From positions 372,001-436,000 of the forward strand of contig VLTN01000011.1 in NCBI GenBank assembly GCA_008330645.1: a stretch of 64,000 nucleotides of DNA, written 5' to 3'. The DNA comes from Cafeteria roenbergensis. Its lineage: Eukaryota; Sar; Bigyra; Bicosoecida; Cafeteriaceae. The position numbers were made by a program, and so were the translations under genes. This document shows positions 20,789 through 50,592 of this stretch, piece by piece (position 1 is the stretch's first letter; each line of letters starts with the position of its first letter). The notes beneath the pieces were generated by a model. It had not been told where the DNA came from, made no database searches, and saw nothing but the letters and a program-made list of their open reading frames with translations.

Positions 20789-20832
20789 CGCAAGAACTCA
20801 CCTGAGCAGCAGGCCACCGCTGGGCGAGGGGC

Positions 20833-24926: not shown

Positions 24927-27032
24927 TCATGCCTTTGCTGAGCGGCCCCGGAGCCACCCCTCGAAGCCCGAGCGCGGCACGGCCAAGGCTTGCGCCGCAG
25001 GCGTGGCAGCGGTGGTCACGTCCCACGCAAGGCGAGCCATCATGCTGTCCTTGGGCGTGCTTGCGAGGCGGGCCAAGGAGCAGGCGTGCTCCACCAGCAC
25101 CGAGAGCCTCCTGGGTGCGACGGCGGGCGCCAGGTCGTCAGGGGGCGCGCTTGGCTTGCGTCCTTGCAGTGTTCCGCCTGCGCTGATGATTTCGCCTCGT
25201 CCAGTCGACGCGATCCCGCGCCCTTGCATCCACTTGGGCAGCGGCAGCGCCACCGCCTCAAGCTCGGCGTGCGCGCCAGAGGGCCGCTTCTTCGCCAACA
25301 GGTCCCGTAGCGACCACCGCAGCCGCGGGGCGCGAGCGTCGGTCGCGGCCTCCGCAGCGGCGACCGTCGCCTCAGCGAGCAGCGCAGGCCAGCGCCCGAG
25401 ACACATCTCCGCAGCGCCCGACCCCCAGGACCGCATCGGTGTCGCCCCAGCCGGCAGCGCCGCGTCACGGCCCCGCTTCCCGGCGCGGCAGCTCGCGTGA
25501 GCCGACCCCGTCGCCCCCTCCCCCTCCGCCTCCGCCTCCGCCTCCGCCTCCGCCTCCGCCTCCGCCTCCGCCTCCGCCTCCGCCTCCGCCTCCGCCTCCG
25601 CCTCCGCCTCCGCCTCCGCCTCCGCCTCCGCCTCCGCCTCCGCCTCCGCCTCCGCAGAGGCGGAGCCCCCCTCGGGCTGCTCGCGAGTGCCCGTGGGCTG
25701 CCAGCCAGTCATGGCGACGCCCCCGACCGCGTCACAATAGGCCTCAACGGCGGCACTGCCAGCGCTGTCGTGACGCACCCAGCCGCGGCCCTCCCTGCCC
25801 CCGGACTCCGAGTCGCCACCCGAGCCGGCCTCGTCGGTATCAAGGGCCCATCGCGCCGCAGCCGCCAGCGACGGCTGGACCCCATCCGCGGGCCCGTCGC
25901 CCGCCGCCACAGCTGCAGAACTCGGCACCGCTGCGCCCCGCGCGGCCGAGCGCAGACAGGCGCTCGCAGCGTCCACCCTGCCGCTCAGTGCGCGGGACAG
26001 TGCCGAACGCGCCGCCGCCCGCCCGCCCGGAACACTCACCACCACCCCGCAGAGCGGGATCCGGCCGACCACGGCACCGAGCGCCGCTCCCTGCAGCCCC
26101 ACCAGCCGCCACCGGCACACCTTGTCTGAGCAGCTCAGGCTGCGACACCGCCGCCCCGCCGGCAAGTCGCTGCGGCCGGCCTTAGTCCGCACCAGCCCGC
26201 CCTGCTGCCGCAGCCTGCCCTCGCCGCACATCGGGTCGCTCGGTAGACCGGCGAAACCGCAGGCAGCGCTGCGACGCGAAACCGCGGCTCTCGCCGAGGC
26301 GGCCTCTGTCGGAGACGCGAGCTCCACAGCCGGCTTTGCGCCGCTCCAGCCCGCGCGAGGGGCGGCGGCCCGCGGGGACAGCGTCGCCTCAGCAGTCGCC
26401 CCCATCTCAGCAGCCGCCCCCGCCTCAGCCGCTCCTCTCTCAGCGGCCGCCCCCGCTTCAGCAGCCGGCCCCGCATCGTCAGTCGCGCCTTCCGTCTGCC
26501 TGTGTCGTTTGGCGGCAGGGTTGGCTCCCTCCGCTGCACGGCATGGGCCGTCTGCGCCGTCTGGGGCCGCGACGGCAGCGTCCCCGCACGGGGCTTTGCT
26601 GACCCACAAAACGGCGCGCGCTCCAGCGCGCAATTGCAGCGGCGCTGCGGCTCCAACGGGAGCCGGCTCCAGAACAACTCCCCGGCGCCCGCCACCGACC
26701 CCTTTGGCGCCAAGCAGCCACGCTGCTTCCAGGGCCAGTAGCCTCACGAAGGCCCGCCGGGCCAAAACCTCAGCGTGGCAGTCCGCCACCGCGGCGCCGT
26801 CTCCGCTGCGGCACTGGTCCGGCCCAAGACAACGAGTGCCCAGCCCAACGGCGACTGGGGCTGCGGAACCGTCGGGGTATGCGATGGCAATGCACGCTGC
26901 CACGGTGTACTCCCCCGGCCCAACCTTGGCAGCGGCCATCGCTGGCGGCACTCCTTGTTTCGCAGCCGCCACTGCGGCGCAAGCCAGCTCCGGCCACCTG
27001 CCCGAGCGCGGGGGTGTGCCCGGGGCTAGCAT
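24927..27032 (-). CDS. tRNA-specific adenosine deaminase, ADAT1 type, with (Ala-Glu)22 tract
   Basis: A single exon of 701 residues starts MLAPGTPPRSGRWPEL. ADAT1 deaminates adenosine 37 of eukaryotic tRNA-Ala to inosine. The zinc and catalytic set is complete: H86-A-E88 in ADCHAEVLARRAF, C149 in KAPCGDAA, and C301 in SCSDKVCRWRLVGLQG, the hallmark of the ADAT1/ADAR deaminase fold. RTKAGRSDLP, just before the last Cys, fits the family. The length exceeds human ADAT1 (about 500) because of two insertions: roughly 90 low-complexity Ala/Glu/Gly residues between C149 and C301, and residues about 420-520, which include a perfect run of 22 Ala-Glu dipeptides. The usual C-terminal region follows (WSLRDLLAKKRPSG). 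The frame is open upstream to 29096, but that overlaps the membrane-protein gene on the other strand and shows no conservation. The gene is divergent from the gene at 27339. Confidence 0.88.
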   Translation of the reverse strand: MLAPGTPPRSGRWPELACAAVAAAKQGVPPAMAAAKVGPGEYTVAACIAIAYPDGSAAPVAVGLGTRCLGPDQCRSGDGAAVADCHAEVLARRAFVRLLALEAAWLLGAKGVGGGRRGVVLEPAPVGAAAPLQLRAGARAVLWVSKAPCGDAAVAAPDGADGPCRAAEGANPAAKRHRQTEGATDDAGPAAEAGAAAERGAAEAGAAAEMGATAEATLSPRAAAPRAGWSGAKPAVELASPTEAASARAAVSRRSAACGFAGLPSDPMCGEGRLRQQGGLVRTKAGRSDLPAGRRCRSLSCSDKVCRWRLVGLQGAALGAVVGRIPLCGVVVSVPGGRAAARSALSRALSGRVDAASACLRSAARGAAVPSSAAVAAGDGPADGVQPSLAAAARWALDTDEAGSGGDSESGGREGRGWVRHDSAGSAAVEAYCDAVGGVAMTGWQPTGTREQPEGGSASAEAEAEAEAEAEAEAEAEAEAEAEAEAEAEAEAEAEAEAEAEAEGEGATGSAHASCRAGKRGRDAALPAGATPMRSWGSGAAEMCLGRWPALLAEATVAAAEAATDARAPRLRWSLRDLLAKKRPSGAHAELEAVALPLPKWMQGRGIASTGRGEIISAGGTLQGRKPSAPPDDLAPAVAPRRLSVLVEHACSLARLASTPKDSMMARLAWDVTTAATPAAQALAVPRSGFEGWLRGRSAKA
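25524..25655 (-). repeat. Perfect hexamer repeat, 22 copies, coding (Ala-Glu)22
   Basis: The hexamer ctccgc (plus strand) is repeated 22 times without interruption over 132 bp inside the ADAT1-type gene, giving alternating Ala and Glu on the minus strand. Lack of any synonymous change suggests recent expansion and likely length variation between strains. Confidence 0.95.
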
Positions 27033-27338
27033 GGCGCGAGTCGAGCGCGCCCCCCGCCCCGGCCAGACTCCAACACTGGCCCGGGGAAGTGCGGAGCGAC
27101 GGGCCGCGCAGACGGTGCGGCGGCCTCGCTCTGCTGCTGTTGCACCCCCGAGGCACACTCGCCAGCTCCGGCGCTCACTGCCCCAGCCTGCCCTCCCCCC
27201 AGGCGCGCCCCCCGCACCAGGGCGCTGTGCGCCGAGCGGCTTGATCGCGAGTGGGCGAGCTGCGGAAGCCGGACTTGGGGTGCTCTCGCCTCGCGGTTGG
27301 CGAGCCGGGCTGGGTCGGTCGCTGCAAGTTGCGGCGCA
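27033..27338. other. Divergent intergenic region
   Basis: These 306 bp lie between the starts of the ADAT1-type gene (minus) and the membrane-protein gene (plus). They probably act as a shared promoter. The membrane-protein frame is open back to an ATG at 27297. No convincing motif is seen. Confidence 0.5.
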
Positions 27339-30300
27339 ATGCACTACTCCCGCCTGCCGTCCGGGGCAGACTCGCCCATGGAAACCAGCCACTTGCCGTC
27401 TGCGAGCCCTTTGCCCAGCGGAGAGACGAGCAAGCCGGCAATCGTGACGCTCTCCCGCGAGAACCGGCGCGCCCTGAGTGTGTTCATGTGGTCGGCGCTG
27501 CTCGTCGTGGGCTCCACCGTGCTTCTGGTCATCCTTCAGGCCTATGATGTGGGAGAGATCACGTACCCGGTCCTGAGCTACTATGCCGGGTACCTCCAGT
27601 CGGGCGGGGGCGAGCGCAAGGCGTTCTTCGGGCAGGCGACGGGGCCTGTTCCAGTTCCGGGCCTCGAAGCCCAGTGCGGCAGCAGCAGCGGCATCGGGCC
27701 AGGCTCGGAATCCTACCCCGCCCCTCCCGCCGGTTTGCTGCGCCGCGCTGCCGCCAGCCGCGTCATTTCGGGGCTGGCGGTGGACGACGGCGACAGCGTC
27801 TACTCGGTGACAGCAACCAGCCTGACGCTGCTGCCGGGTGGGGAGAGCGCCGCGGCAGACAGCCTGGGGACCGAGCTGTTCCTCACGCGTCACGGCGACG
27901 AGGAGGAGTCGTCTCTGCTCGCCCAGGTGCAGCTGGTTCGCGCACGGCCCGCCGACGACAGCGCCGCAGCGGACCTGCGGCAGACCGGCAGAGCTGGCAG
28001 AGCTGGGATGCCCTTCGCCGACTCGAGCAGGGGCGAGGCAGCGGCGGCCTCCCGCGAGCCCTTCCTCGCGCTCGCGCAGCTGGGCATGGAGGCGTCGTCC
28101 AAGGCGCCTCTGGTCGCGATTCGGGGGTCGGTGCTGAGCGCCCCAACGGGGGGGGCCGCCAGCAGCGCGGCGCCGCCGTCCGAGGCGGTCAGTATGCTCG
28201 CCCTGCTCTCCGCTGACCACGACACTGGGGCGCTGCGCTGCGTGGACAGCATCGACTTCGTGGCGGCGCAGCGGTCCGCCTCCAAGGCCGTGCCCGCCGC
28301 GGAGTGCGTGGGGCCCAGCTCGGAGGATCCGGGACCGATGAACGACGTAGCGGACCCGGAGGACCCCACCTGGTTCCGCCCCGTCGCCATGGCCGTGGGG
28401 GGCTGCGTGCACCCAGGGAGCGCGCTCAACACGACCTGCCCGGCGGCAGAGCCAATCTCCCGCCGCGCCTCCGACCTGTGCGCGGGGCAGGCGGCGGCGC
28501 GGGACCAGAGCCTGCCCTTCAGCTGGGTGGACGCGTACGTGGGGGGGCCGCGCGACAACCAAATGGAAATCGTCCGGGTGCGGATCGTGGTGCGCCGCTC
28601 CAGCTGCGACGCCCGCTGGACTGCCGTGAGACTGCTGCAGGACTGGGTGGTCCCGCACGCCGCCCCGGCCGTGCCGCTCTTCTGGCCGCTGCCTGTCGCG
28701 GCCGCCTCCACCGTGGCGCTGTTCGCCAACGCCTCGATGCTCTTCGCCTCCTACCCGCTCCTCGACCCCATCGGGACGGACGGCGCGGCGGCGCCCGCCG
28801 TCCACGGCCACCGCCCTGTCCCCATGCAAATCATCGGTCTCAACACGACCGGCCGCTTGGCGTGGCAGCTCACAACGACGCTGCCCAATGTAACGGGGCT
28901 GGCTAGCAACTTGGCTGTGGACGAGGGCGGCTCGCTCTGGGTCGTGGCAACTTCGACTGTTCACGGCAGCGCCAACGCCACAGGCCGCGACCGCCTCGGC
29001 ACGGGGACCAGCCACTGGCCCGCCCTGCATCCGCCGCCCCGCCGCCCCCCACCAGCTTGCAACAGCAGCAGCTCCGGCGCCGCCTGCAGAGCGCACTTAG
29101 CCGAGGCTGAGGCCGGAGGCAGCCGGGGCGGCCTGCCATATGAGACTCTGTACTCGCTGGTGAGCATCAGCCCGGCGGACGGCACGCTTCGGCGCATGGA
29201 CAGCGTGCGCCAGCTCCAGGCCAAGCGGCGCACGCCCACGCTGATGGGCCCGCTGATGCAGCTGGCGGTGAGCGCCAACTTTGTGACGTTTTGCGAGCAG
29301 CTGTGGGTAGGCTTTGCGAACATGACGGAGGTTCATGGCATGTGGGAGCAGTCGCAGCGGCTGCCCCTCACCGCGGGCATCGGGTGGGGGGCGTTCTCGC
29401 TCGACGACGGAAGCGGGATTGGCAGCGAGGGCAAGGCTGGCTCTGGCCGGCAGCTCGCGTGCGTGGGAGACATGATCGCGACTGACAAGGCGATCTTCGC
29501 CACCGTGGCAGAGTCGGCCGAGGGCCCCTGGCTGGCGGATGATGCACAGCGGGGGGGGGCGGTTCAGCTGGACGCCGGGTGGTCCCTGCCCTCCGTCGAG
29601 GCGGAGCGGCCTGCCGGCAGCAGCCCCGGCCCCGCCGGCGTCCAGGGCGCTGTGCTCAACCTGTTCGCCATGGCCTCCGTCACCGCGCGGGGCCGTGTGG
29701 TCTGGAGCTCCAAGTCGGCAGCCAGCACGGACCTGCTGCCGGCTGAGCTGGGAACCCTACAATTTCCCGGGCCGTGGGAGCCCCGCGCCGACGGCTCCAC
29801 CATGTCCTCGCCTGCGCCGCTGGGCCCGGGAGACGAGACGTGGGCGTTCTTCGGGACCTCGGCCAGGGTATCCTCCGCCCTGGGAACGGGCCGGCGGCTG
29901 GTGTCGCAGCGCGACAGCCCCATGTTCGTGCACACACCCGCGGTGCCGTGGACAAACGAGTCCGTGGACACGGCTGAGACGGTGCAGCGGTGCAGCTCCC
30001 TGCTGCCGCCCAGCCTCGTCGAGGGCTACACGTTCCTCACTGTGGGCATGCTGCTCTCCATGATGGCGCGCTGCCTGCGGGGCTGGTGCTGGGCCACCGT
30101 CTTCCGCGTGCACGCGCAGGGAGCAGGGGGCGCGCTGCCGGACGACACCTCCCTGCGCCTGGTCAAGTTCGCGCCGCACAAGTGCATGTGCCTCGACTGC
30201 CGCCTGGGCCAGCTCGAGAAGCACTGCCGCGTCCGGTGCTGCGCCGTGCGCTGCCGGCAGCCCTGCGGGCTTGACCCGTTCGTGATGCACCCCCACGACC

Positions 30301-33273: not shown

Positions 33274-36200
33274 TCAATGAGAGAACTGGCGGGAGTCGGA
33301 GCTGTCGCGCTTCCCGTAGGGGTTGGAGGCGCTGAAGTCCTGGCCGGTGCGCTGGCGCCGGTGAGCCTCCTTGACCTGCTCCGACTTGGACTTGTCGCCG
33401 AAGCCTCCGCCGCCTCCGCGGCGCCGCACCTTGGCCCCCGTGGTCTTGATAGAGAGGTTGACGCGCGGAGGGACGGTGAATCCGAAGCCCTTGGCAACGC
33501 CAGCCAGGTCGAGGCTGTGGACGTCGAAGATGTGCTTGAGGCTGTGGGACGAGTAGGACTGGAGGTAGGCGCGGTAGGCGTCCTTTGCGCTCTTGTTGAG
33601 GTAGTAGTTCTTGCCCACGAGCTCCTCCAGGCTCTTCTGCACGCGAGCGATCTTCTTCTGCTAGGCGGGGCGCAGGTCCAGGCGGGGCAGAGACAAGGCG
33701 GAGCGGGGAGAGTGGAGGCAGCGCAGCGCAGCGCAGCGCAGCGCAGCGCAGCGCAGCGCGGCTTGGAGGCGAGCCCGAAGGTTCGGAGCCAGGTCTGGGC
33801 GCTCGGAACGGCTGGGGCGGCGGCGGGCGGCAGACTCACGTCCGGGAACTCGTACTCGTTCAGGGCGACCTTGGCGGCCCGAAGGTACTTGAGGAAGCCG
33901 AGCTCCTCCGGGAGGAGGAAGAGGAGGGCCTTGCCGTTGCCAGTGGCGCCGCGAGCGGTACGGCCAACGCGGTGGATGTACTCCTTCGGATCTGCAACGA
34001 AACGGAGCAAGCGCGCAACACGAGGCGGGGTGCGTGGAGGAGGAAAACGAGGAGGGCGGGGGCGGCGGCGGGGGCGGGGCACGGCAGGAGCCGCGCCTGC
34101 GGCGGCGGATGGCCGGATTTGCTCACCATCAGGGGGGTCGTACTGGATGATCCAGTCGACGTAGGGGATGTCGAGGCCTCGCGCCGCCACGTCCGTGCAG
34201 AGCAGCACGCCGGACTCGCGCTTGCTGAAGTCGAAGAAGGTGGTGGTGCGGCGCGCCTGCTTCATCTTGCCGTGGATGTCCATGCAAGGGACGTCGACGT
34301 AGTTGAGCAGCTCCGAGTGGAAGGTGACGGAGTTGCAGGAGGAGAAGAAGACCATGATCTTCTTCTTCTTGCTCATGCGGCGGAGGAAGGAGAAGAGCAG
34401 CAGGAAGCGCTTCTCGCTGGGGCACACGACGTACCCCTGCTCCAGGCCGGACACCGTGGCGTCGGTGCTCTCGTCGTCCACGCCCACGTAGACGGGAGTG
34501 TTCCGGACCGCGACGCGGGCGAGGTCGGCCACGTTCTTGGTCTGGGTCGCGGAAAACAGCATCGTCTGGCGCTCTTTGGGGAGGATGTTGACGATGGCGT
34601 GCATCTCCTCTTCGAAGCCGGCCTCCAGAATGCGGTCGGCCTCGTCGATGACCAGCATCTGCATGCCGCCGAAGTGGAAGCCCTCAGTGGAGCGCAAGTG
34701 GTCGAGCAGTCGGCCGGGCGTGGCCACAAGGATGTTCACGCCGCGCACGAGCTTCTCGGCCTCGGTGCGCCTGTTGGCGCCGCCCATGATGAGGCCGTGC
34801 GTCTGACGGTGCTCGCCCATGAGCTCGGCAACGTTGTGGTAGATCTGGATGGCCAGCTCGCGGGTGGGTGTGATGATGATGGCGCCCGTGCCGTTGCGCG
34901 GCTTGAACTTGGCCCGCGCAAGGATCTCGATGACGGGCACGAGGAAGGCCAGGGTCTTGCCAGAGCCGGTCTTGGCGGCGCCCAGCACATCCTTTCCCTC
35001 CAGGAGGGGGGGGATGGCGCGAGCTTGGACGTGCGTCATTGTGGTGACGCCCATCTCCTTCAGTCCGGCCTTGGTGGCGTCCAGCAGCGGCAAGTCGGCG
35101 AACTTGGTCCCGCTGAAGAACCCGTCCCGGCCGGCAGGCGCCGCATCCGAGGCTGCGGCTGCGGCCGCAGACGACGACGCCGCGCTTGCCCCCTCCTTCG
35201 CCTCCGCCTCGTCGCCGTCCTCGTCTTCGTCGTCATCGTCTTCGTCATCGTCATCACCAGCCTCCTCGGCGGCGTCGCCCTCAGCGCCATCCTCGTCGTC
35301 GTCGTCCGACTCCTCCTCCTCGCCGCTCTCAGCAGCCGCCGCAGCCGCGGCAGCCGCCGCAGCCTCGGCCTCGGCCTCGGCCTCGGCGCGAGCCGCCTCC
35401 TCGCGCGCCGCGCGCTTTGCCGCACGCCGCGCCTCCTTGGCCTCCAGAAGGGCCTGCGCCTTCTCCTTCTTGCTGGCCGTCGCAGCCACTGCTGCGCGGA
35501 TGGCCTCCTTGGCCGCCTCGTCGGGGGATGCCTCTTCGGCTTCCACAGCGTCTCGGGAGCGCTTCGTCGAGGCCTTGGCCTTCTCAACACTTGCCGGGGC
35601 TGGCGCGGGAGCGGCCTCGGCCCGCTTGGGCTCGATAATGCCGCAGTCCGCAATGACGACAGCGCGCTTGGTGGCGCCGCTGTGAGTGCCCATGCGCTCG
35701 ATTGCCTTCACGACGGCCATGCCCGTCGTCACGCGGCCGAACACCACGTGCTTGCCGTCGAGGTGGGGCGTCTTCACAGTAGTGATGAAAAACTGGCTCC
35801 CGTTGGTGTGGCGCCCAGCGTTGGCCATCGACAGCAGCCCGGGGCGGGTGTGCCGGAGGGTGAAGTTCTCGTCCTTGAACGTTCTGCCGTAAATGCTCTC
35901 GCCGCCGGTCCCATTGCCTGCCGTAAAGTCACCTCCCTGCAAAGGACGGCCGGAAAGAAACACAAGCGCGGTGGAACCCGGGTCGCGCATCTTCCCTGGG
36001 CACCGCCAAAGCAGCCAACGCGGCCGTCCGCGGCCGTGCAGAGCCGCAACGCGTGGCAAACTTCCAGCCGCGCGCTCGTCCCCCTCACCTGCAGCATGAA
36101 GCCCGGGATGACGCGGTGGAACTTGCTCCCCTTGTACGTCAGCTTCTTGCCGAACTTGCCGCGGCCCTTCTCGCCAGTGCACAGGGCGCGGAAGTTCGCC

Positions 36201-36361
36201 GCCGTGCGAGGCACCACGCGGTCCGCGAGCTGGAACTCGATGCGACCGGCAGGCGTGCCGCCCACAGTCACATCGAAGAAGCAGCGCGTGCCGTCGAAGG
36301 CGTCCGCGGGCTCCGCGGCGGCTGCCCCGCCGCCCCCGGTGGAACGCTTTCTACGGCCCAT
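33274..36361 (-). CDS. Cyclophilin fused to Has1/DDX18-type DEAD-box RNA helicase
   Basis: Predicted exons are 36361-36089, 35936-34127, 33991-33840 and 33660-33274, giving 873 residues. Residues about 20-195 are a cyclophilin peptidyl-prolyl isomerase ([20 protein letters not shown]; Arg83 and Gln91 match CypA Arg55 and Gln63; NGSQFFIT). The Trp that contacts cyclosporin in CypA is His here ([11 protein letters not shown]). A Lys/Ala/Glu-rich linker with an Asp/Glu tract follows. From about 365 on comes a complete Has1/DDX18 helicase: AKTGSGKT (411-418), TPTRELA, DEAD (522-525), [12 protein letters not shown]. The C-terminus has [18 protein letters not shown], an RGGGGG patch and the SSDSRQFSH ending diagnostic of Has1/DDX18. 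Has1 is a nucleolar helicase of large-subunit ribosome assembly. The second exon spans both cyclophilin and helicase without a stop, so the fusion is not a splice artefact of my model. A second in-frame ATG lies at 36388. Confidence 0.92.
33721..33755. repeat. Pentamer repeat in the last intron of the cyclophilin-helicase gene
   Basis: Seven copies of gcgca in tandem lie in the third intron, between the helicase core and its C-terminal exon. Confidence 0.85.
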
Positions 36362-36746: not shown

Positions 36747-38834
36747 TCAGGACTGGCCGCCGCGCCGGGCCAGTGACGCGCGCGTGATCTCCATGAGGAG
36801 CATCGGCTCCTGCGCCAAGTCGTCCAGGTTCACCTCGGCAGAGCCCAGGATGAAGTCGAGGCAATGGCGCTTGAGGTCCGTCGCGGAGCAGCGGTGCGCG
36901 ACCACGAGGAGCGTGCACGCGTTGGCGGCGTCCACGTGCTGGATCAGCTGCGAGTCGCACAGCGCCTTGAGGTCGTCCAGCGCGTAGTGGTCGGCCAAGG
37001 ACATGAGCTCGAGCGTGACCATGGGGGCGGTCGAGGGCGCGCTGCCGCTGTAGAGGTACTCGAGCATGGCCACGAAGGCGGCCTTGGTCCAGTCGGCCAC
37101 GCGGATCTCGGCAGCGCTCGACTCCTCCATTCCGGAGCTGAGCATGGCCCGGAAGTGCTCCGACCGCGCCCACAGAATGCCGCGGTGGGCAACCACGCGG
37201 TCGTCGCCCAGCACAAAGGTCACGTCCGGGAAGCTATCCGGGTTGTTCACGAGCGAGGAGAGGTCGCTTCGAAGCGACGTGAGCGTGGCGGACGTGATGG
37301 CGCTCTGCTCAAGCCGGCCGACGTCCAGCACGTGGCAGTCGTCCAGCCAGCGGAAGCCGTCAAAGCCGCCAAACACCACGAGGCGGTGCGGGCCGATCGC
37401 GACGGTGGTGTGTCGCTGGCGCCCGGCGGGTGTGCCCTCCGCCACGGGCGGGTGGTCCCAGGCGAAGGTTGTGGTGTCGAGAGTGAACAGCTCGTTGGAC
37501 CGGCTGCGGCCGTCGTAGCCCGCGAACAGGACGAGCTTCTCTCCCACCAGGCTGGCCGTGTGGCCGCGCAGGCCGGGCGGGCGGGCCCCCTTGGTCTCGG
37601 GCTTGGACCAGCGGAGCGTCGCCAAGTCCAGCACGCGCAGGTCTGGGAGGTGCTTCGCGCCGGAGTGGCCTCCGAACAGGAACAGCTGGTCGTGCACCAC
37701 GGTGAGCGACGCGGCGTTGCGCGCCTGCGGGTCGTCCCCTGTGACAGCCGCCCGCGTCCACGTGAGCGTGTCCAGGTCGAGAACGTCGAGATCGTTGAAG
37801 CAGCGGCTGCCGTCGTAGCCGCCGAAGCAGTAGGCCTTGCGCTTGTGCACCACAATGCAGTGGCAGGCGCGAGCGGAGGGCGGCGCGCCGCTCACCGACG
37901 GCCGCGTCCAGCGCCACTCGCCGCGAGCCCCGGCCGCTGCGGGGGCCGCCTCCAGAACGTACATGTCACTCAACCAGTGGCTTCCGTCGTGGCCGCCGTG
38001 CACGAACAGCTTGTTTCCGACGACGAACGTTGCATGGTTGTTGCGCGGCGAGGGCGCGTCGCCGACGATGCGCGGGCAAAACCACTCCATGCGCGCCAGA
38101 GAGAGCACGTGCACGTCCGCAAGCCCCTCTTTGCCGTTCCAGCCGCCGAAGACAACCATCTGCGACAAAGCAAGACCGCGCCAGGCGGCTCCCGTTCGCA
38201 CGACCCCTCGCAACAGTGGCCCGCGCCGCGCCTGCACGCCGACTGGCGCGCCAAGCCGAGAAGCGAGAGCGCGCGAGGGCTCACCATCCCATCCACAATG
38301 TTGCACGAATGCGCCGCGCGCGCTCCTGCGTCCCGCGTGGGCCAATAACGCTCGGCAACGGGGTTCGGGGGAACTGCGAGCTGCCGGCCTGCCAGCGATG
38401 GCGGCAGCCTGCTGCACGCCTTCCCCGGCCTGGCGCCAACCCAGGAGCTCGGCGCCCGACTATGCCATCGCATGGCGGAATTGCTTGCCCTGGGGCGAAG
38501 CGCGACAGCCGGAACCCTTACCTGGCGGCGTGCCTGGCCGTGCGAACACCTCCCAATGCCCGTCAATTGGCGGGGGCAGCTCGTCTCCGGCAGCCGAGCC
38601 CGTGGCTGCCGCAACGCCGGACCTCCATGGCGCTGCCGCGCCTGCTGCGCTCGATGCACCGGCCCCAGCGGCCATGCCACGCGGCCTGCGGCGCGGGTCG
38701 GGTGGGCCCGCCGCAGCCTCGGCCATGGGTGTTCCACGAGGCGAAGCAGAGCTGACCGCAACTTGGCCAGCTGGCGAGGCGCTCGCACCGCCGCAGGCTC
38801 GGGCCCGGACCGCGTTGGCAGACCCCTGCGCCAC
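36747..38834 (-). CDS. Kelch-repeat protein with C-terminal BTB domain
   Basis: Predicted exons are 38834-38522, 38325-38285 (only 41 nt) and 38159-36747, giving 588 residues; an internal ATG at 38726 would remove 36. The small exon is supported by phase and content: its junctions rebuild a Kelch start, TPPGARAAHSCNIVDGM followed by MVVFGGWNGKEGL. About six Kelch repeats follow with the usual GG pairs (LFVHGGHDGSHW, AYCFGGYDGSRCF, LFLFGGHSGAKHL, LVLFAGYDGRSRS, LVVFGGFDGFRWL), forming a propeller. A BTB domain starts near residue 425 (FPDVTFVLGDDRVVAHRGIL, SEHFRAMLSSGM, AMLEYLYSG). BTB proteins often link substrates to CUL3 ubiquitin ligases, with the propeller as substrate arm; that role is family inference. 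Propeller before BTB resembles LZTR1 or plant/protist proteins rather than animal KLHL. The Ala/Gly-rich first 85 residues are unrecognised. Confidence 0.85.
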
Positions 38835-39613
38835 GCCGGGTTGAGTCTTGCGCGCCGCTTCTTGGGCGGCGGGCGGCGTCCCCGTTGAGCTTGGCTCAGG
38901 AACGCGCTGTCAGGCCGCCGCAAACCCCCTGAAGGCCCCAGCCCGCGCACAAGCAATCAGGCTTCTGCCACCAAACGTGCGCGCGATCTCGTGGTCCACT
39001 ACCGTAGCAACGGAAACGTACAAGCTGCATTGCGTTGGGGCGCTCCACTCGGCAGCGGTATCGGCAGCAACTCCAGCGTGCAGCGCTTCGAGTGCCTGTC
39101 TGAGACACCCTCGCCGTGTCGAACGCGCAGCTTCGGTAGCTCCGGCGTCTCGAATCGCCAAGCTGCGGGCGGCGCTTGCAGCAGCCGCCCGTCTCCCAAA
39201 GGGCGCTCGTATCTCGCTCCGAGCGTGGTGGCAGAGCCCCCATATCACACACACACAAAAAATCCAGATTTTGGTTGCCGACATCCATGCCGCTGAGCAC
39301 TGAGCACTTGCGACCGGAGCCCACCAAGGCTTCGCCGCCTCGTTCGCGCGCGATCCAAGGGCGCTCGGAGTGAGCCTGCCCCCGTTGGCTGCGCTTGCGC
39401 CGGCCTGGCGAGCTCTCCGGCGCCGTGCCGGGAAAAGTCGGTTCGGATCCTCGATTTTGCTCGAAAACGATTGCAGCGCGGCCCCGTTGGCGTCTACGAC
39501 GGCATGCCCCTGCCTTCTTCTCGCACTTTCGTGTCCCGCAGGCCGTACGCTCGTTACCGCGGGCGGTCGTCTCTGGCGAGCAGCCTCCCTGCGCACTAGT
39601 TCCCCAAAGCAGC
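38835..39613. other. Divergent intergenic region
   Basis: This 779-bp stretch separates the starts of the Kelch-BTB gene (minus) and the Upf1-like helicase gene (plus). It is the least GC-rich gap in this part and contains a CA run and A run (cacacacacacaaaaaatcc) at about 39246-39266, a possible promoter element. Frames through it lack conserved features, and I see no RNA gene. Confidence 0.55.
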
Positions 39614-42388
39614 ATGGCAGCAGCTGCAGCAGCCTCGTCTGGGGCCGGCGCGCGTGCACCGCACGCTGGCGACGCCGAACGCTGGCCTCTTGGGGGGCTG
39701 GCGGGTGACAAGCCCCTCAGACTTGGGCGCCCCAGTCGAGCCAGCGACCTGCTGCCAGCAGCGTCTGCTCTGGTGCGCTCCCTTGGTACCGGTCTCAGGG
39801 CTCTCGAGGCCCTCACTGAAGCGGTCACGTCGACGGGCGCCTGGGCCTCAGACTGCGCCAGCTGGCGCACCACTGACCCGGGCCAGGATCTGACTGAAGA
39901 CGGCCTTACGCTCGTCGTGAAAGCAGCGCCCGTGCTGGTCTGCACACCAGTTCTTTCCGTGACGGGTGGCAACACCACAAGCTTTGTCCAAGAGATGATG
40001 AGACAGGCGCTGCTCGTCCGAATCGAAAACTCGGAGAGTATTCGCCGGACCAAGGACGCTGTCGCCACGGGAGTCGACTGCACAAGCGATGGCCACAAGG
40101 TGGATCTGACTGCGCGCGACTTCGCCGCCCTGCGGCAGCTGCGCACCTGGTGCTTCGGCGGCAAGCTGGATGAAGGTCGCGAAATCGACGTATCCTGGCA
40201 GGAGGGGAGGCGCACCCTGAGGGCAAGCGTGGAGGTCGTGCGCATCGAGTCGTTGGGCACCGAGTTTAAAATCGTCGGCAAGCCATCCGACCGCAATCGC
40301 CGCGGACCACGGGTCCCACATCTGCAAACCGTCACTGTCTCTCGCGGACACTTTGACACGGATTTGCCAACCGTGCTGGACACCATGCTGAGCTTGACAG
40401 CTCGGCCTTCGCTGATGAAGGCCATCGCCCAAACCGTCTTCCCGAAGCGACCGGACTCGCCCTGTGGTGCGTCTGATGCCGACCCGGCGCCCGGCCCCAG
40501 CGAGGCTACGTTCACCTGGGTGAACACTTGCCTGAACGATATGCAGAAGGCTGCAGTGCGCACCATCCTGGCCAAGACGCAGCTCCACGTAGTCCAGGGC
40601 CCCCCGGGCACTGGCAAGTCCACGACGCTCTGCGAGCTGGTGCACCAACAGCTCGCCAGGAACCCGAGAAGCCAGATCCTCGTGATGTCGCACTCCAACG
40701 TGGCGGTTGACCTGCTGACTGCCGCTTTGCTGGACGGCAGCACCGGCCGAAGGGTTGCCAAGGAGCGGCTCGTCCGATGGCGGTCGAGAGGCCGTCGGAC
40801 TGCGCACATCATCAACGACCTGGGCCCCGACAAGGCCAGGCTCGTCGAGTCGGTCACCTCGGGCATCGGGCACCCGGAGAACCCGTCGCAGTTCCAGCTG
40901 GACACAGCCCAGGTTCTCGCGATGACCCTGTCCATGGCAAGCAAGCTCGGCCGCCTGCCTAGCCCCCCCGATTTCGACTTGATCATCTGCGACGAAATGT
41001 CACAGGCGACCGACGCGGACCTGATCCCAGCCCTGCAGGGCCCGTTCCGCGCAAGGCTGGCGTTCAAGCCGGACGCCACACCCCCGACACTGGTGCTGGC
41101 CGGCGATCCAGACCAGCTTGGGCCGGTGGTCCACTCCCGCCTCGCGCGCCTGCTTGGCCGCTCCATTTCTTGCCTCGAGCGCCTGACAACTGCAGGCGGC
41201 CTTGCGAGCCAGACGCGGCCGGCTTCAAGGGCGGCGTGGGCTCGAGCCATGGGGTGTGCCCTGCATCGGTCGTTCGACAACGCCACGAGTGAGGCACAAA
41301 AGGAAGATCTCAAGACGTTGGTCAGTAAACGCGTCGACAAGCTGTTGGGGACCCTCGGGTTCGAAGCGGAGAACACGGACGCTGCGAGGAGCGGGCCGCC
41401 GGACTGCACTCGTGTGCTGCGGCTTGACGACTCCTACCGCTGCCACCCCGACATCGCCCGCCTGTGGTCCGGCCTGACATACACAGGCAAGGTCAAGGCA
41501 GCAAGAGGCAGTCTTGACCGCGAAGGCTTCGAGAGGGGCGACAAGGCATCTCGCGCTGTGATTGAAGCGCTAGATGCTAAATTCGGCGGCAAGGTTGTCG
41601 CAGGGCCCCACAAGGACGCAGTTGTGGAAGGACTCAAGCGGAAGCACGAGTCTCTGCACGAACCCCTTGCCGATGTGCTCCGTGGTCGGCCCGCTGGCGA
41701 CTCGTCTGCGCCGCGGGTAATTGTTGTCCTGACGGACGGCGACGCTTGCGAAGCAAAGGATGGCACCTCATTGAGCAACGAGCCCGAGGCCAACATCGTG
41801 GTGGGCGGCATCGCCGCTGCGCTTGAAGCTGGCATTTCCCCCAAGGACATTGCTTCGGTGTCCCCCTATGCGCACCAGGCGTTTATGGTGTTTGAAAAGA
41901 TCCAAAGTGAGCACCCCGAGACGGCTTCGGACCTGCGAGGCGGAACGATTGAAAAGTTCCAAGGCCAGGAGGTATCCATCGAGTTTCTGAGCCTGGCAAT
42001 GACCTCTGGCCATGTCGTCGACGCCAGTTATCCAGAGCTCACTGCTCGCTTTGCATCCGAACGCAAGCGCATCAACGTTGCGATCAGCCGTGCGCGGGAC
42101 TTGCTTGTGCTGGTCGGCCACCCGGAGTTCATGGAGTCCGCGCCGAACCTTGCGACCATCATCGCATATGCAGCGACGATTGGAGGCCTTGTGGATGCCA
42201 CGGAAGCTCAAGAGTGGGCTGAAGGGTACCACTTTGAAGACGGCGACGAAGCGCAGCCTGCTGCGTCTGGAACTGCTGTGCACGACGGCGAAGCGCAGCC
42301 TGCCGGTGCTGCAGCTGCCACAGCAGCTGCTGAGGAGCCCGGCGACGAAGCGAGCGAAGACCCCAGTGCCGCGGTCGCTGCCACGTAG
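39614..42388 (+). CDS. Upf1-like superfamily 1 helicase
   Basis: A single exon of 924 residues; the ATG at 39614 is the first real ATG of the frame, and the open sequence before it is unconserved. All SF1B motifs are present: Walker A GPPGTGKS (329-336); motif Ia SHSNVAVD; motif II CDEMSQ (459-464), where Upf1 and Sen1 usually have DEAxQ; motif III GDPDQLGP (497-504); YRCHPDI (608-614); QGQE (783-786); and NVAISRARD (821-829). The family includes UPF1, SEN1/senataxin, IGHMBP2, SDE3/MOV10 and DNA2, which unwind RNA or DNA with ATP in mRNA decay, transcription termination or silencing. I cannot assign a subfamily: the first 300 residues lack an evident zinc module. The C-terminus is an Ala/Glu-rich tail with a repeated acidic piece. 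It faces the multi-C2 gene, with 175 bp between the stops. Confidence 0.88.
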   Translation: MAAAAAASSGAGARAPHAGDAERWPLGGLAGDKPLRLGRPSRASDLLPAASALVRSLGTGLRALEALTEAVTSTGAWASDCASWRTTDPGQDLTEDGLTLVVKAAPVLVCTPVLSVTGGNTTSFVQEMMRQALLVRIENSESIRRTKDAVATGVDCTSDGHKVDLTARDFAALRQLRTWCFGGKLDEGREIDVSWQEGRRTLRASVEVVRIESLGTEFKIVGKPSDRNRRGPRVPHLQTVTVSRGHFDTDLPTVLDTMLSLTARPSLMKAIAQTVFPKRPDSPCGASDADPAPGPSEATFTWVNTCLNDMQKAAVRTILAKTQLHVVQGPPGTGKSTTLCELVHQQLARNPRSQILVMSHSNVAVDLLTAALLDGSTGRRVAKERLVRWRSRGRRTAHIINDLGPDKARLVESVTSGIGHPENPSQFQLDTAQVLAMTLSMASKLGRLPSPPDFDLIICDEMSQATDADLIPALQGPFRARLAFKPDATPPTLVLAGDPDQLGPVVHSRLARLLGRSISCLERLTTAGGLASQTRPASRAAWARAMGCALHRSFDNATSEAQKEDLKTLVSKRVDKLLGTLGFEAENTDAARSGPPDCTRVLRLDDSYRCHPDIARLWSGLTYTGKVKAARGSLDREGFERGDKASRAVIEALDAKFGGKVVAGPHKDAVVEGLKRKHESLHEPLADVLRGRPAGDSSAPRVIVVLTDGDACEAKDGTSLSNEPEANIVVGGIAAALEAGISPKDIASVSPYAHQAFMVFEKIQSEHPETASDLRGGTIEKFQGQEVSIEFLSLAMTSGHVVDASYPELTARFASERKRINVAISRARDLLVLVGHPEFMESAPNLATIIAYAATIGGLVDATEAQEWAEGYHFEDGDEAQPAASGTAVHDGEAQPAGAAAATAAAEEPGDEASEDPSAAVAAT

Positions 42389-42563: not shown

Positions 42564-45500
42564 TCAAGCAGGAGTCATTTGCAGCGAAACCCTGAGCTTG
42601 CTCAACGCGCCCTTGTTCCCCTTGAGCGTGTCGCCCTCGGGCTTGCCATCGCGGCGGTCTTGCAAGTCTAGCACGAGCGCCTTGGGCTCACCGGCCTTCA
42701 GGGTCGCCAGCATGTCGTCGTCCAGGGCGATCACCGCCCGCCCGATGGGGTCCGCCGCGGACATGCTGTCCTTGTCCATCAGCTCCACCACCACACCAGT
42801 CTCCACCTCGCCCGGCCGCGCCGTGTACAGCTCGAACGTCTCACCCCACTCGGGGTCGTTGCTCCCGCTCACCACCTTGGTCTGCACCCGCTGCGACAGC
42901 GTGGGGCAGTCCCCGCTGCCCGCCAGCGACACCACGGCGAAGGCGTCCTGCTTGCCCCCCATGAACCCGCCCTCCGACGGCAGGTCCGACGCGCCCTCCA
43001 CCACCACGCGCAGGGCGCTGAGCTCCCTGCCCGGAGAGCCGTCCCGGCCGAGCTCGGGCTCCTCCGGGGCCTCCTCCCCCTTCCGGCAAAACGCCACAGC
43101 GAAGCGGACGCGGGCAGCCATGGCCTTGGCGCCTTTGCCCACGACGACCGGTCGGCCGTTGAGCCGTAGCGCAGACTCATACCAGAACCACTTCCCGCGG
43201 CACTCGCTGCTAGCCATATCGTCAAACAGAGGCACACAGGCGCTGCCAACGGGCTTGTCCTTGGTAAAGCGGTTTTTGTCGAGCACCTCGACCCAAACCT
43301 GGCGAGCAGCCCCCTCGACTCCGGCCGCGACCGCAGCATCCCCCAGCCCCTTGAGCTTCAGCTTGCCAACGCCGGCCCAGCGCACGGTCGACGCATCTGC
43401 AGCAGCACCGGTCTTGGCCGTTGCAGAGCCGGCCGTGAGACACACGTACGGGTCGGCGGCGCCACCAAACCAGCCCTCCTTGGGGATACCGTCAACCTGA
43501 AGCCCCGACACGAACAGCGTGCCCTTGAACGCCTTGGACGGCGCGGCAGCGGCTACGGCCTCCTCAGGGGCCCGCTCGACGGGCACGGCCGCGGACGCAG
43601 CAGCTGATGCGGCGGGCGAGTCTGTCTTGACAGACGCTGCTGCGGCAGCCTGAGCAGGGGCAGCCTTCTTCGTCTTGCCAGCCACCGTGCTCAGTGAGGT
43701 GCCCGTGGAGTCGGCCTGCACCAGCGCCACCCGCACTCGCACGGTGCTGGACGCGCCCTTGTCGCCCTTCAACGGCTGGCCCTCCTTCCCCGCCGCCGTG
43801 TTCACCAGCGACGCCGTCAGCACCTCCCCCTCCCCCTCCCCCGCACGTGCGCGAGCCAGCATGTCGTCGTCCAGGGCGATCACCGCCCGCCCGATGGGGT
43901 CCGCCGCGGACATGCTGTCCTTGTCCATCAGCTCCACCACCACACCAGTCTCCACCTCGCCCGGCCGCGCCGTGCACAGCTCGAACGTCTCACCCCACTC
44001 GGGGTCGTTGCTCCCGCTCACCACCTTGGTCTGCACCCGCTGCGACAGCGTGGGGCAGTCCCCGCTGCCCGCCAGCGACACCACGGCGAAGGCGTCCTGC
44101 TTGCCCCCCATGAACCCGCCCTCCGACGGCAGGTCCGACGCGCCCTCCACCACCACGCGCAGCACCTGCGCCGGCGTGCTCACCTGGCCGTCCCGGCCGA
44201 ACTCGGGCTCCTCCGGCGCGTCCTCGCCCTCCAGCGTGAAGCACACCGCGCCCACCAGCTGCGCAGACGACCCCGCATCGCCGGCCACGCCTTGACCCTT
44301 GGACCGAAGGGCCACCGTGTGCCAGTGCCACTGGCCCCGCCCCTCGTCGGACAGCACGTCGTCCGTCAGCGGCAGCGCTGCCACGCCGATGGCGCGGTCC
44401 GCCGTCAACACGTTGCTGTCCTTCGCTTCCACCCACACGCAGTGCGCCGGAGACTCGACCCCGTCGGCCACGGCCCGCGGGCCCGCCCCGGACACGCGGA
44501 GCTGAGCAACGCCTGCCCAACGGACGCTCGTCTTGCCGCTCGCACCCCCCGTGCGGGACGAGCTTTGGCCCGCCTTGAGGATGAGGTACGGGTCCGCCTT
44601 GCCTCCGAGCCAGCCCTCCTTAGGCACGTTCACAAGCCGCAGCCCGGACACGTGCACCGTGCCCGCGTGCGACGCCGCCTTCGGGTCCTCTGCAGCCGGA
44701 GCAGCCTCCGCCTTGGCGTCGCGAGGCGGCGGGCCCTTCGCGTCTGCCTCAGCCTCCAGACGCGCCCGAGCGTCCGCCGCACTCGCGTCCGGCCCCGCAA
44801 AACCGCCACCGCCGCCGCCAGCCCCAGAGCTCGCCGCCGCCCCGCCCCCCGACGCCGGCGAGCCGAACTCCGCGCTCAGGTCCTCCGCCGCACCGGCGCC
44901 GTACGGCGCGTCCCGCACGTACGCCACCCGCACCACAACCTTCCCGCCAGTGTCCGACCCGTCCGCCGCCTTCACCGCCACCTCGCTCTCGCTCCACTCG
45001 CCGTGGTGCTCGCTCCGCAGGTCCCGACGCAGCGGCAGCACCGCGCTCCCCAGAGCGTCGTCGCGGCTGAAGCGGTCGTAGTCCGTCACCGTCAGCACCA
45101 GCGACGTCTCGTCGCCCTCCTCCGCCCCAACCTGCTCCAGCGGCAGCGTCAGCACCTCGTCCCACACCGGGTCCGCGCTGTTGTCCACGCGCACGCTCGT
45201 GGCCTTGGCCTGCCCGCACTGCGCCACCACGTACGCGTCGGCCGCGCCCGTGGTGTCGCCCGAGGGGAGAGACTTGGCGCGCACGAGGTGCACAAGCAGG
45301 GTGCCCTTCCCGGCGAGCTGCTCCGCGGCCTCCGCGCTGGCCTTGCGGCGCGCCGCCTCCTCCTCGGCAGCGCGCTCGGCAGCGGACTTGCCGGCGTCGG
45401 CGATGCGCTGCGCCTCTGCGGCCTCCTCCTCCGCACGGCGCTGCGCCTCGGCGGCCTCGCGCGCCTGCTTGGAGAGATCACTCCCGGCCACGTCGGCCTG

Positions 45501-48500
45501 CACCAGCGCCACCCGCACTCGCACGGTGCTGGACGCGCCCTTGTCGCCCTTCAACGGCTGGCCCTCCTTCCCCGCCGCCGTGTTCACAAGCGACGCCGTC
45601 AGCACCTCGCCCTCCCCCTCCCCCGCACGTGCGCGAGCCAGCATGTCGTCGTCCAGGGCGATCACCGCCCGCCCGATGGGGTCCGCCGCGGACATGCTGT
45701 CCTTGTCCATCAGCTCCACCACCACACCAGTCTCCACCTCGCCCGGCCGCGCCGTGCACAGCTCGAACGTCTCACCCCACTCGGGGTCGTTGCTCCCGCT
45801 CACCACCTTGGTCTGCACCCTCTGCGATAGCGTGGGGCAGTCCCCGCTGCCCGCCAGCGACACCACGGCGAAAGCGTCCTGCTTGCCCCCCATGAACCCG
45901 CCCTCCGACGGCAGGTCCGACGCGCCCTCCACCACCACGCGCAGCACCTGCGCCGGCGTGCTCACCTGGCCGTCCCGGCCGAACTCGGGCTCCTCCGGCG
46001 CGTCCTCGCCCTCAAGCGTGAAGCACACCGCGCCCACCAGCTGCGCAGACGACCCCGCATCGCCGGTCACGCCTTGACCATCCGACCGAAGCGCCACCGT
46101 GTGCCAGTGCCACTGGCCCCGCCCCTCGTCGGACAGCACGTCGTCCGTCAGCGGCAGCGCTGCCACGCCGATGGCGCGGTCCGCCGTCAACACGTTGCTG
46201 TCCTTCGCCTCCACCCACACACAGTGCGCCGGAGACTCGACCCCGTCGGCCACGGCCCGCGGGCCCGCCCCGGACACTGGCAACTGGGTCACGCCCGGCC
46301 AAGCCATGCCAGCCGCGACGTCGGTCTGCTTGGACGCGGACGCCGCCTTGAGGATGAGGTACGGGTCCGCCTTGCCTCCGAGCCAGCCCTCCTTAGGCAC
46401 GTTCACAAGCCGAAGCCCGGACACGTGCACCGTGCCCGCGTGCGACGCCGCCTTCGGGTCCTCTGCAGCCGGAGCAGCCTCCGCCTTGGCGTCGCGGGGC
46501 GGCGGGCCCTTCGCGTCTGCCTCAGCCTCCAGACGCGCCCGAGCGTCCGCCGCACTCGCGTCCGGCCCCGCAAAACCGCCACCGCCGCCGCCAGCCCCAG
46601 AGCTCGCCGCCGCCCCGCCCCCCGACGCCGGCGAGCCGAACTCCGCGCTCAGGTCCTCCGCCGCACCGGCGCCGTACGGCGCGTCCCGCACGTACGCCAC
46701 CCGCACCACAACCTTCCCGCCAGTGTCCGACCCGTCCGCCGCCTTCACCGCCACCTCGCTCTCGCTCCACTCGCCGTGGTGCTCGCTCCGCAGGTCCCGA
46801 CGCAGCGGCAGCACCGCGCTCCCCAGAGCGTCATCGCGGCTGAAGCGGTCGTAGTCCGTCACCGTCAGCACCAGCGACGTCTCGTCGCCCTCCTCCGCCC
46901 CAACCTGCTCCAGCGGCAGCGACAGCACCTCGTCCCACACCGGGTCCGCGCTGTTGTCCACGCGCACGCTCGTGGCCTTGGCCTGCCCGCACTGCGCCAC
47001 CACGTACGCGTCGGCCGCGCCCGTGGTGTCGCCCGAGGGGAGAGACTTGGCGCGCACGAGGTGCACAAGCAGGGTGCCCTTCCCGGCGAGCTGCTCCGCG
47101 GCCTCCGCGCTGGCCTTGCGGCGCGCCGCCTCCTCCTCGGCAGCGCGCTCGGCAGCGGACTTGCCGGCGTCGGCGATGCGCTGCGCCTCTGCGGCCTCCT
47201 CCTCCGCACGGCGCTGCGCCTCGGCGGCCTCGCGCGCCTGCTTGGAGAGATCACTCCCGGCCACGTCGGCCTGCACCAGCGCCACCCGCACTCGCACGGT
47301 GCTGGGCTTGCCTTCGGCTCCAGCGAGAGGCTGGCCCTCCTTCCCCGCCGCCGTGTTCACCAGCGACGCCGTCAGCACCTCGCCCTCCCCCTCCCCCGCA
47401 CGTGCGCGAGCCAGCATGTCGTCGTCCAGGGCGATCACCGCCCGCCCGATGGGGTCCGCCGCGGACATGCTGTCCTTGTCCATCAGCTCCACCACCACAC
47501 CAGTCTCCACCTCGCCCGGCCGCGCCGTGCACAGCTCGAACGTCTCACCCCACTCGGGGTCGTTGCTCCCGCTCACCACCTTGGTCTGCACCCTCTGCGA
47601 CAGCGTGGGGCAGTCCCCGCTGCCCGCCAGCGACACCACGGCGAAGGCGTCCTGCTTGCCCCCCATGAACCCGCCCTCCGACGGCAGGTCCGACGCGCCC
47701 TCCACCACCACGCGCAGCACCTGCGCCGGCGTGCTCACCTGGCCGTCCCGGCCGAACTCGGGCTCCTCCGGCGCGTCCTCGCCCTCAAGCGTGAAGCACA
47801 CCGCGCCCACCAGCTGCGCAGACGACCCCGCATCGCCGGTCACGCCTTGACCATCCGACCGAAGCGCCACCGTGTGCCAGTGCCACTGGCCCCGCCCCTC
47901 GTCGGACAGCACGTCGTCCGTCAGCGGCAGCGCTGCCACGCCGATGGCGCGGTCCGCCGTCAACACGTTGCTGTCCTTCGCCTCCACCCACACACAGTGC
48001 GCCGGAGACTCGACCCCGTCGGCCACGGCCCGCGGGCCCGCCCCGGACACTGGCAACTGGGTCACGCCCGGCCAAGCCATGCCAGCCGCGACGTCGGTCT
48101 GCTTGGACGCGGACGCCGCCTTGAGGATGAGGTACGGGTCCGCCTTGCCTCCGAGCCAGCCCTCCTTAGGCACGTTCACCAGCCGCAGCCCGGACACGTG
48201 CACCGTGCCCGCGTGCGACGCCGCCTTCGGGTCTTCAAAGTCGTCCGCGTACTCGTCTCCGGTCTTGGCGTCGCGAGGCGGCGGGCCCTTCGCGTCTGCC
48301 TCAGCCTCCAGACGCGCCCGAGCGTCCGCCGCACTCGCGTCCGGCCCCGCAACACCGCCGCCGCCGCCGCCAGCTCCAGAGCTCGCCGCCGCCCCGCCCC
48401 CCGACGCCGGCGAGCCGAACTCCGCGCTCAGGTCCTCCGCCGCACCGGCGCCGTACGGCGCGTCCCGCACGTACGCCACCCGCACCACAACCTTCCCGCC

Positions 48501-50592
48501 AGTGTCCGACCCGTCCGCCGCCTTCACCGCCACCTCGCTCTCGCTCCACTCGCCGTGGTGCTCGCTCCGCAGGTCCCGACGCAGCGGCAGCACCGCGCTC
48601 CCCAGAGCGTCGTCGCGGCTGAAGCGGTCGTAGTCCGTCACCGTCAGCACCAGCGACGTCTCGTCGCCCTCCTCCGCCCCAACCTGCTCCAGCGGCAGCG
48701 ACAGCACCTCGTCCCACACCGGGTCCGCGCTGTTGTCCACGCGCACGCTCGTGGCCTTGGCCTGCCCGCACTGCGCCACCACGTACGCGTCGGCCGCGCC
48801 CGTGGTGTCGCCCGAGGGGAGAGACTTGGCGCGCACGAGGTGCACAAGCAGGGTGCCCTTCCCGGCGAGCTGCTCCGCGGCCTCCGCGCTGGCCTTGCGG
48901 CGCGCCGCCTCCTCCTCGGCAGCGCGCCTGGCTTCCTCGGCCGCTCGCTCTGCCTCCTCCGCCGCGCGCGCGGCCTCCTCCTCTGCTCGGCGACGGGCGT
49001 CTCTCTCTGCCCGGGCAGCCTGCTCCTCAATACGGCGTTGGCGCGCCTCCTCCTGCGCCCTGAGCTGCGCCTGGTGCTCCGCCTCCGCCTGCTCCCTGGC
49101 TGCCTGCTGCTCCTGAGCGCGGCGCCGCTCGGCGTCCTCAAATGCCCGGCGCCGGGCCTCCTCCTCTGCAGCAGCGCGAGCGCGTGCGGCCTCGACCTCC
49201 GCAGACGCCGCTGCAGCCCTGTCGATCGGGGGCAGCTCGTCTCCGTCACCACGCCACATCGCCCCTCCGTCGGTCCCGACGCCGCTGCTGCTGGGCCGGT
49301 CGCCGCGCTCGTCGTCGACCAGTCGACGGTGCCTGCCGCCAGCGGACGTGCTCGGCCTGCCGGTGCCACGCGGGCGCCTGGGCCTGGCAGCCGCCCCTCG
49401 GCGCCCGGGGGAGCGCGGCCGGATTCCGTCGCCGGGCGGCGCTCTTGTCGTGCGCGCAAGGTTCTCCGCGTACACTCGCTGCTGCTTCGCCTCTCTGTCC
49501 ATTTCCTCGGCTGACAGCACCGAGCGCGTGTGCACGATCCGGTCCAGCAGGCGGAGGTTTTCCCTCGCAATGCGCTGCGCCTCCTTGCGGCGCACCGAGT
49601 AGTTCATGGACGCCTTGGGCACCGCCGCTCCCCGGGCAGTCGTGCCAGCCGCGACAAAATTGTCCAGCATCGGGGTCTGAGCGGCGTCGAGCCGCACCCC
49701 GGCCGAGTACTCCCTGGAGGCGGCCGCACTCTTGCCGCGGTCAGCAATCCGTGCCATCCGCATCAGCAGCAGCCTGTTTTCGCGCTCGACTTCCATCATC
49801 CGCTCTGCGGGCGTATGCACACGGTTCAAAGGTGCAGGGGAAGCCTGTGGGCGCGCGCGCCCCTGGCGCGCGTCGCGGTCTGCAGCGGTCAGGAGGCGGC
49901 CGGGTGCGGAGCCGACGCGAAAACGCTCTCCCCCACCCCCGACCCCTTGGGCTGCCCATCGCCTCGCGCGCGCAGTTTCGGCGGCTCCCGCAAGGTCGTT
50001 GTCTCGCACATCCCGGAGGCTGCGCGAGGTAGAGGCCCGCCGGGTCGCGGGGAAGGCCTGCAGGCTCTCGCGGACAATTGCTCACCGCGCTGCGCCATGC
50101 GGCGCTTGGCATTCGTGACCACGTGCGGGTACATCGCGGGCGTCTCGTTGTCGATCCCGAGGTTGCGCACATGCTGCGGCGGCCGGGCCGAGGCGGGGCC
50201 TCGAGGCGGGGGAGGGGGGGGGGGCGAGCTCTCTGGGCGGTCAGCGAAGGCACGGTTCCCCTCCACCACCATTGGCGTCTGACCATGCCGGGCGACGATC
50301 TGCTGGCGGCTCCGGCAGCCTCAACAACCGCGGCGCGCGGGTGCGGCCTCGCCGCCTTCCGCAGTTGCGATGCGGTTGCCTTGCGCGGCTCGGCCGCGCC
50401 CCTTGGCCCGCGCCGCGGCCGCTGCCTGGCCCTCGCGGGCCGGCCGCTGGCTCGCACCCAACCGCTTTCGCCTCGCTGCGCGCCCTCCCCACGCTGCAAC
50501 CTCACGTCTCGCTTCGCTCTGTGGATGTCCCGGCGCCGCTCGATCTCGCGCTCCTCCAGAAGCCGGCTGACGAAGGGCTTGCCGCGGTTCAT
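42564..50592 (-). CDS. CFAP97-like head followed by about eleven C2 domains
   Basis: Predicted exons are 50592-50506, 50299-50086 and 49804-42564, giving 2,513 residues. Exon 1 starts MNRGKPFVSRLLEEREIERR. Residues about 75-210 resemble the CFAP97/Hemingway (KIAA1430) domain of ciliary proteins: PHVVTNAKRRMAQ, then VERENRLLLMRMARI and NYSVRRKEAQRIARENLRLL. A Glu/Ala/Arg coiled coil follows. The rest is three nearly identical units, each with three C2 domains (types a, b, c), plus a terminal b-c pair, so about eleven in all. Type a starts GTLLVHLVRAKSLPSG and keeps acidic loops (DPVWDE, TDYDRFSRDD) fit for calcium. Type b starts GTVHVSGLRLVNVPKEGW; type c starts LRVVVEGASDLPSEGG and has MDKDSMSAADPIG. 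Multi-C2 proteins such as ferlins bind membranes in response to calcium, but no C-terminal membrane anchor is seen. A role tethering membrane at the cilium or flagellar base is inference. Confidence 0.82.
43711..48926 (-). repeat. Three tandem 1.77-kb near-identical coding units
   Basis: The C2 gene contains three direct tandem units at about 43711-45492, 45493-47265 and 47266-48926. Spacings are 1,773 bp between most matching points and 1,779 or 1,782 where small in-frame indels occur. Long stretches are identical at the DNA level, third codon positions included. A further shorter block matching part of the unit (type c C2) lies at about 42690-43010. The repeats arose by recent duplication or are kept alike by gene conversion; assembly collapse or expansion should also be considered. 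Confidence 0.9.

Follow-up and report, generated by a model that had tools for sequence, protein, structure and literature searches.

The analyzed window, a DNA stretch of 64,000 nucleotides, carries on its minus strand a gene in which four exons join into one reading frame of 2619 bases. After splicing and translation this frame gives a protein of 872 residues with a mass of 93.9 kDa, close to the value near 95 kDa predicted in the first-pass annotation. The ATG lies at position 36361 and the stop codon ends at position 33274. All three introns show the GT-AG consensus and have lengths of 152, 135, and 182 bases. The exons and the parts of the encoded protein are the following:

36089..36361, minus strand: exon 1, with the start codon and the beginning of the cyclophilin domain, residues 1-91
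34127..35936, minus strand: exon 2, remaining cyclophilin, linker, and helicase core as far as IIQYDPPD
33840..33991, minus strand: exon 3, [14 protein letters not shown] to NEYEFPD
33274..33657, minus strand: exon 4, SPB4-type C-terminal extension, SSDSRQFSH, and stop codon
35640..36277, minus strand: cyclophilin domain, residues 29-190, split by intron 1 (ends computed from residue numbers)
35094..35618, minus strand: linker, in the cut chosen here, residues 198-372, a mixed-charge part of Ala, Lys, Arg, and Glu followed by an Asp/Glu-rich part
33274..35093, minus strand: Has1/DDX18 helicase unit, residues 373-872, split by introns 2 and 3

The first residues encoded by exon 2 are GGDFT, midway through the cyclophilin domain (from residue 92), and the exon stops short of [14 protein letters not shown]. 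A complete cyclophilin and a complete Has1/DDX18 helicase had been described as sharing the exon at 34127-35936. One frame does join both, but neither domain is whole in exon 2. The cyclophilin begins in exon 1. SSDSRQFSH and the rest of the helicase end, which had been placed in exon 2 too, belong to exons 3-4. The acceptor chosen for intron 3 recovers a stretch aligning with HAS1 (NEYEFP..KIA.VQ); another acceptor was rejected, as exon 4 is out of frame with it. Intron 2 is open and its length is a multiple of three, so its retention would leave the frame unbroken.

On the same strand, the upstream neighbor is a Kelch-repeat protein with a C-terminal BTB domain (36747-38459), the frame of which ends at 36747, near the gene described above. 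On the other side, a plus-strand frame without a Pfam match ends close by at 33002. Also on the minus strand, seven C2 stretches and a CFAP97 (Hemingway) domain are encoded by a 2505-codon frame (42564-50081), which was defined from stop to stop and may merge more than one gene; an adenosine-deaminase (editase, A_deamin) domain lies on this strand within a frame of 1389 codons (24927-29096). A stop-free run of 3579 codons without a Pfam match (10058-20797, minus strand) lies in very GC-rich and repeat-rich DNA, the region from 12 to 20 kb having 80% GC and a strong strand skew. The plus strand contains an 873-codon WD40-repeat frame (50787-53408) and an AAA_11/AAA_12 frame (39374-42388), overlapped by a long antisense frame without a Pfam match; such domains occur in UPF1-like helicases. 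No tRNA was found in the scanned sequence and no Rfam model matched at its gathering score. The GC content of the window is 65-80% in 4-kb steps. For Cafeteria, a GC content of about 70% and 1.67-1.89 introns per gene are given in the available text of a published source (PMC6972860). At the level of a guess from these few traits, the high GC content, the introns, and the CFAP97 domain of the window would agree with a high-GC flagellate such as Cafeteria, other GC-rich protists being possible sources as well.

The N-terminal part of the protein is a cyclophilin, as had been proposed, both by its Pfam match and by its closeness to cyclophilin chains of solved structure. In the Pfam scan of the spliced protein, PF00160 was found at residues 29-190 (E 1.2e-47) and covered over its whole length (profile positions 2-158 of 159). 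In the alignment with chain 4jjm, 120 of the 167 aligned residues are identical. The residue numbers of PPIA were assigned to the motifs of this cyclophilin on our assumption that they correspond, 4jjm and not PPIA being the aligned chain. Of the nine active-site residues named in the available text of PMC2911226, eight are kept: R83, F88, M89, Q91, A129, F141, L150, and H154. The ninth, at the Trp121 position of PPIA, is a histidine (H149).

The same source, in the part available, lists PPID, PPIG, PPIL3, RANBP2, and NKTR as likewise having His at the Trp121 position and describes this residue as permissive for cyclosporin binding (PMC2911226). There, turnover of at least one tetrapeptide was detected for PPID, PPIG, and NKTR, and replacement of His by Trp in PPID raises the affinity for cyclosporin. 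With eight of the nine residues kept and a permissive His, the prolyl isomerase of the fusion is likely to be active, and its affinity for cyclosporin is probably weaker than that of PPIA, as judged from sequence.

The C-terminal part belongs to the Has1/DDX18 family, in agreement with the first-pass annotation. In the same protein, the Pfam scan found PF00270 (DEAD) at 392-562 (E 3.5e-48), PF00271 (Helicase_C) at 607-708 (E 1.3e-26), and PF13959 (SPB4-type C-terminal extension) at 762-811 (E 6.8e-18); a fifth match, ResIII, overlaps the DEAD domain. The DEAD-box core motifs are present as AKTGSGKT (412), PTRELA (448), DEADRIL (522), SAT (553), and HRVGRTAR (701). Compared with the DDX18 chain 8fkp, the helicase unit scored 679.9 bits and aligned to the very end, including SSDSRQFSH. 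HAS1 scored 677.7 bits, far above the next named family, SPB4 (226.5 bits), and a DDX10 fragment (213.7 bits), among the best 60 of 170 rows for solved structures. Identity to stretches of three Has1/DDX18 chains was 61-65%. The DDX18 and HAS1 chains used in these comparisons are presumably the human and the yeast ones. An NCBIfam scan of exon 2 matched 31 families, and the 25 among the matches listed are all helicase-related or repair models below their cut-offs.

Both families are very probably united in one protein, since a continuous spliced frame carries all four of these Pfam domains, as the first-pass annotation had held for the cyclophilin and the helicase. Between them lies a linker of 175 residues. 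Ala, Lys, Arg, and Glu are abundant in residues 198-297, and the net charge is -29 over residues 298-347 (two 25-residue blocks summed). Has1 proteins generally carry a charged extension at the N-terminus. The DDX18 alignment starts near residue 356, so the final residues of the linker belong to the helicase.

The sequence could instead hold two adjacent genes, each with its own message owing to two promoters or poly(A) sites; the linker would then be a UTR or intergenic sequence that is open by chance. A run of 175 open codons is not rare in this DNA: under a Markov model, the chance of finding it in a given frame is 0.12 with the composition of the window and 0.08-0.22 with four local compositions. 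The chance of 175 codons both stop-free and ATG-free is 0.04 (window composition). Counted over six frames, stop-free stretches of 175 codons or more occur 178 times in the window, compared with 175-213 times in ten simulated windows. Stretches that reach 1053 codons, the length of the open run considered here, occur 11 times in the window, some of them mutually antisense, and 0 times in each of the ten simulated windows, where the longest run has 748 codons. In DNA that is GC-rich and full of long open runs, many of them antisense, openness alone is thus modest evidence for translation. The synonymous-codon test is neutral on this point: with 0.003 per codon for the linker frame versus 0.297 for one antisense frame, the linker frame is not favored.

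The case for the fusion rests more on what the linker lacks. No in-frame stop ends the cyclophilin alone, its frame being open through exon 2 and intron 2. In the spliced frame, the next Met after M173 of the cyclophilin is M386, which already lies in the helicase. The region 35081-35660 contains five ATGs, all in another frame, and an acceptor-like site at 35602; the scan for GTRAG donors found none there by which one of these ATGs could be spliced in. Translation of a separate helicase could therefore begin only within the N-terminal motif region of the helicase itself; initiation at M386 would cut off residues that align with DDX18 from about residue 356. Two separate genes are accordingly quite improbable, and we infer a single mRNA for all of the fusion.

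The linker contains short tandem repeats at 35212-35246 and 35332-35387, where an assembly or base-calling error might have deleted a stop codon or joined two loci. The listed periods of 6, 9, 15, and 18 bases are, however, all multiples of three, and intact domains lie in the same frame on both sides, which makes such an error highly improbable. The longer runs of Asp/Glu and of Ala are encoded by a mixture of synonymous codons, except for one run of four Glu, all GAG; such mixing is more in keeping with translation than with a simple repeat at the DNA level.

The AlphaFold model of exon 2, made for this exon alone without relatives, had a mean pLDDT of 46.2 and a pTM of 0.36. In the numbering of the full protein, it places helices at residues 209-243 and 247-291 with low to middling confidence. 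The linker is probably helical and then acidic; because the model is poor, the helices and the arrangement of the domains are not established by it.

We estimate a probability of roughly 0.6 for the explanation as a whole, that is, a fused Has1 helicase which carries a tethered prolyl isomerase to pre-ribosomes. One gene would give one protein, with a cyclophilin at the N-terminus joined by a long linker to a complete Has1/DDX18 helicase. Most likely, this protein would do the ordinary work of Has1, including pre-60S docking, help for the formation of domain I, and release of the U14 snoRNA. In the available text of the respective sources, one early pre-60S structure shows Has1, its ATP pocket empty, beside Cic1 on helix 16 of 25S rRNA (PMC6340896), and crosslinks of Has1 were mapped to H21-22 of 25S rRNA and to the U14 snoRNA (PMC6300602). 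From such a binding site, a long-armed cyclophilin would reach early pre-ribosomes. The linker would thereby give the prolyl isomerase a high local concentration on these pre-60S particles, where it may isomerise or hold proline-containing tails of ribosomal proteins or assembly factors.

A functional coupling to large-subunit assembly is plausible. For other cyclophilins, the available text of a review describes an effect of RNA: CYP33 becomes more active and AtCYP59 less active (PMC7641896); by analogy, RNA-dependent tuning of the fusion is conceivable. A more specific proposal, tentative and on balance doubtful, is that ATP-driven docking and release of Has1 gate the place and time of action of the tethered isomerase in at least one eukaryotic lineage. 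If so, one protein would couple rRNA remodelling with proline switching in ribosomal proteins or assembly factors.

The two halves may also be fused with the cyclophilin being only a passenger or a passive binding module, or with the linker being cleaved after translation. The length and low complexity of the linker are in keeping with this explanation, as is the residue at the Trp121 position, where His is less favorable than Trp. PPIL2 given this His is described in the main text of the source as binding cyclosporin without activity, although a supplementary legend states that activity is conferred (PMC2911226, in the part available). Against a mere passenger, the conservation of the active-site residues suggests selection for a working site. 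This explanation is possible, though we consider it unlikely, and the tethered isomerase is preferred.

Both halves belong to known families. No cyclophilin-helicase fusion was found among the listed matches in the open-licence literature, as covered by titles and the openings of abstracts, and a search aimed directly at such a fusion matched 0 papers. The word "helicase" occurs 0 times in the available main text of a review on plant cyclophilins, in which a table lists many partner domains (PMC7641896), and 0 times in that of a paper on an apicomplexan cyclophilin repertoire. In viral contigs, single-protein scans for close relatives confirmed no relative with the helicase, nor one with cyclophilin, linker, and helicase start; the helicase alignment scan gave one locus, with 21% identity (L006). 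In prokaryote genomes, one scan with only the helicase half gave five bacterial loci with 31-33% identity, which are of no use for the fusion. A protist relative would not be expected in either collection, so these results tell little about the spread of the fusion. The joined architecture is new as far as checked in these collections and this literature, rather than database-wide, and its novelty is neither contradicted nor established.

Compared with Has1/DDX18 proteins, the helicase unit, the SPB4-type extension, and the SSDSRQFSH end are all as in the DDX18 chain 8fkp. The DDX18 chain, 670 residues long, aligns from position 165 onward and bears no cyclophilin name, whereas a cyclophilin is N-terminal here; this DDX18 chain is absent from the best 60 of 162 chains matching the cyclophilin query. 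Among these 60, the top scores belong to single-domain cyclophilins, chains of 171-207 residues with 259.8 bits at best, and cyclophilin 40 (215.7 bits) and NKTR (213.3 bits) score below them. Single-domain and His-type cyclophilins share with the fusion a common PF00160 domain and a conserved active site; the partner domain here is a helicase. RNA-linked multidomain cyclophilins of the RRM type (CYP33/PPIE, AtCYP59, CRIPs) likewise combine a cyclophilin and an RNA-acting domain in one chain. In contrast to these, the RNA-acting part here is a ribosome-assembly ATPase, and no RRM domain was found in the fusion with Pfam at E 0.001.

Ribosome-linked prolyl isomerases are also known from other families, and to our knowledge no such FKBP or parvulin is fused to a helicase. 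The fusion is a single gene in which the role of an isomerase on pre-ribosomes could be addressed. In the available text of PMC4496705, FKBP25 is reported to associate with the immature large subunit, where it is said to be present without a precise task, and Par14 is reported from complexes of pre-rRNA. Yeast FPR3 is nucleolar according to titles in the reference list of PMC2447506. FKBP25, Par14, and FPR3 are thus ribosome-linked like the proposed fusion, but belong to the FKBP or parvulin families and not to the cyclophilins (PMC4496705, in the part available); beside them, a natural fusion to a helicase whose binding site is mapped would indicate where such an isomerase could act.
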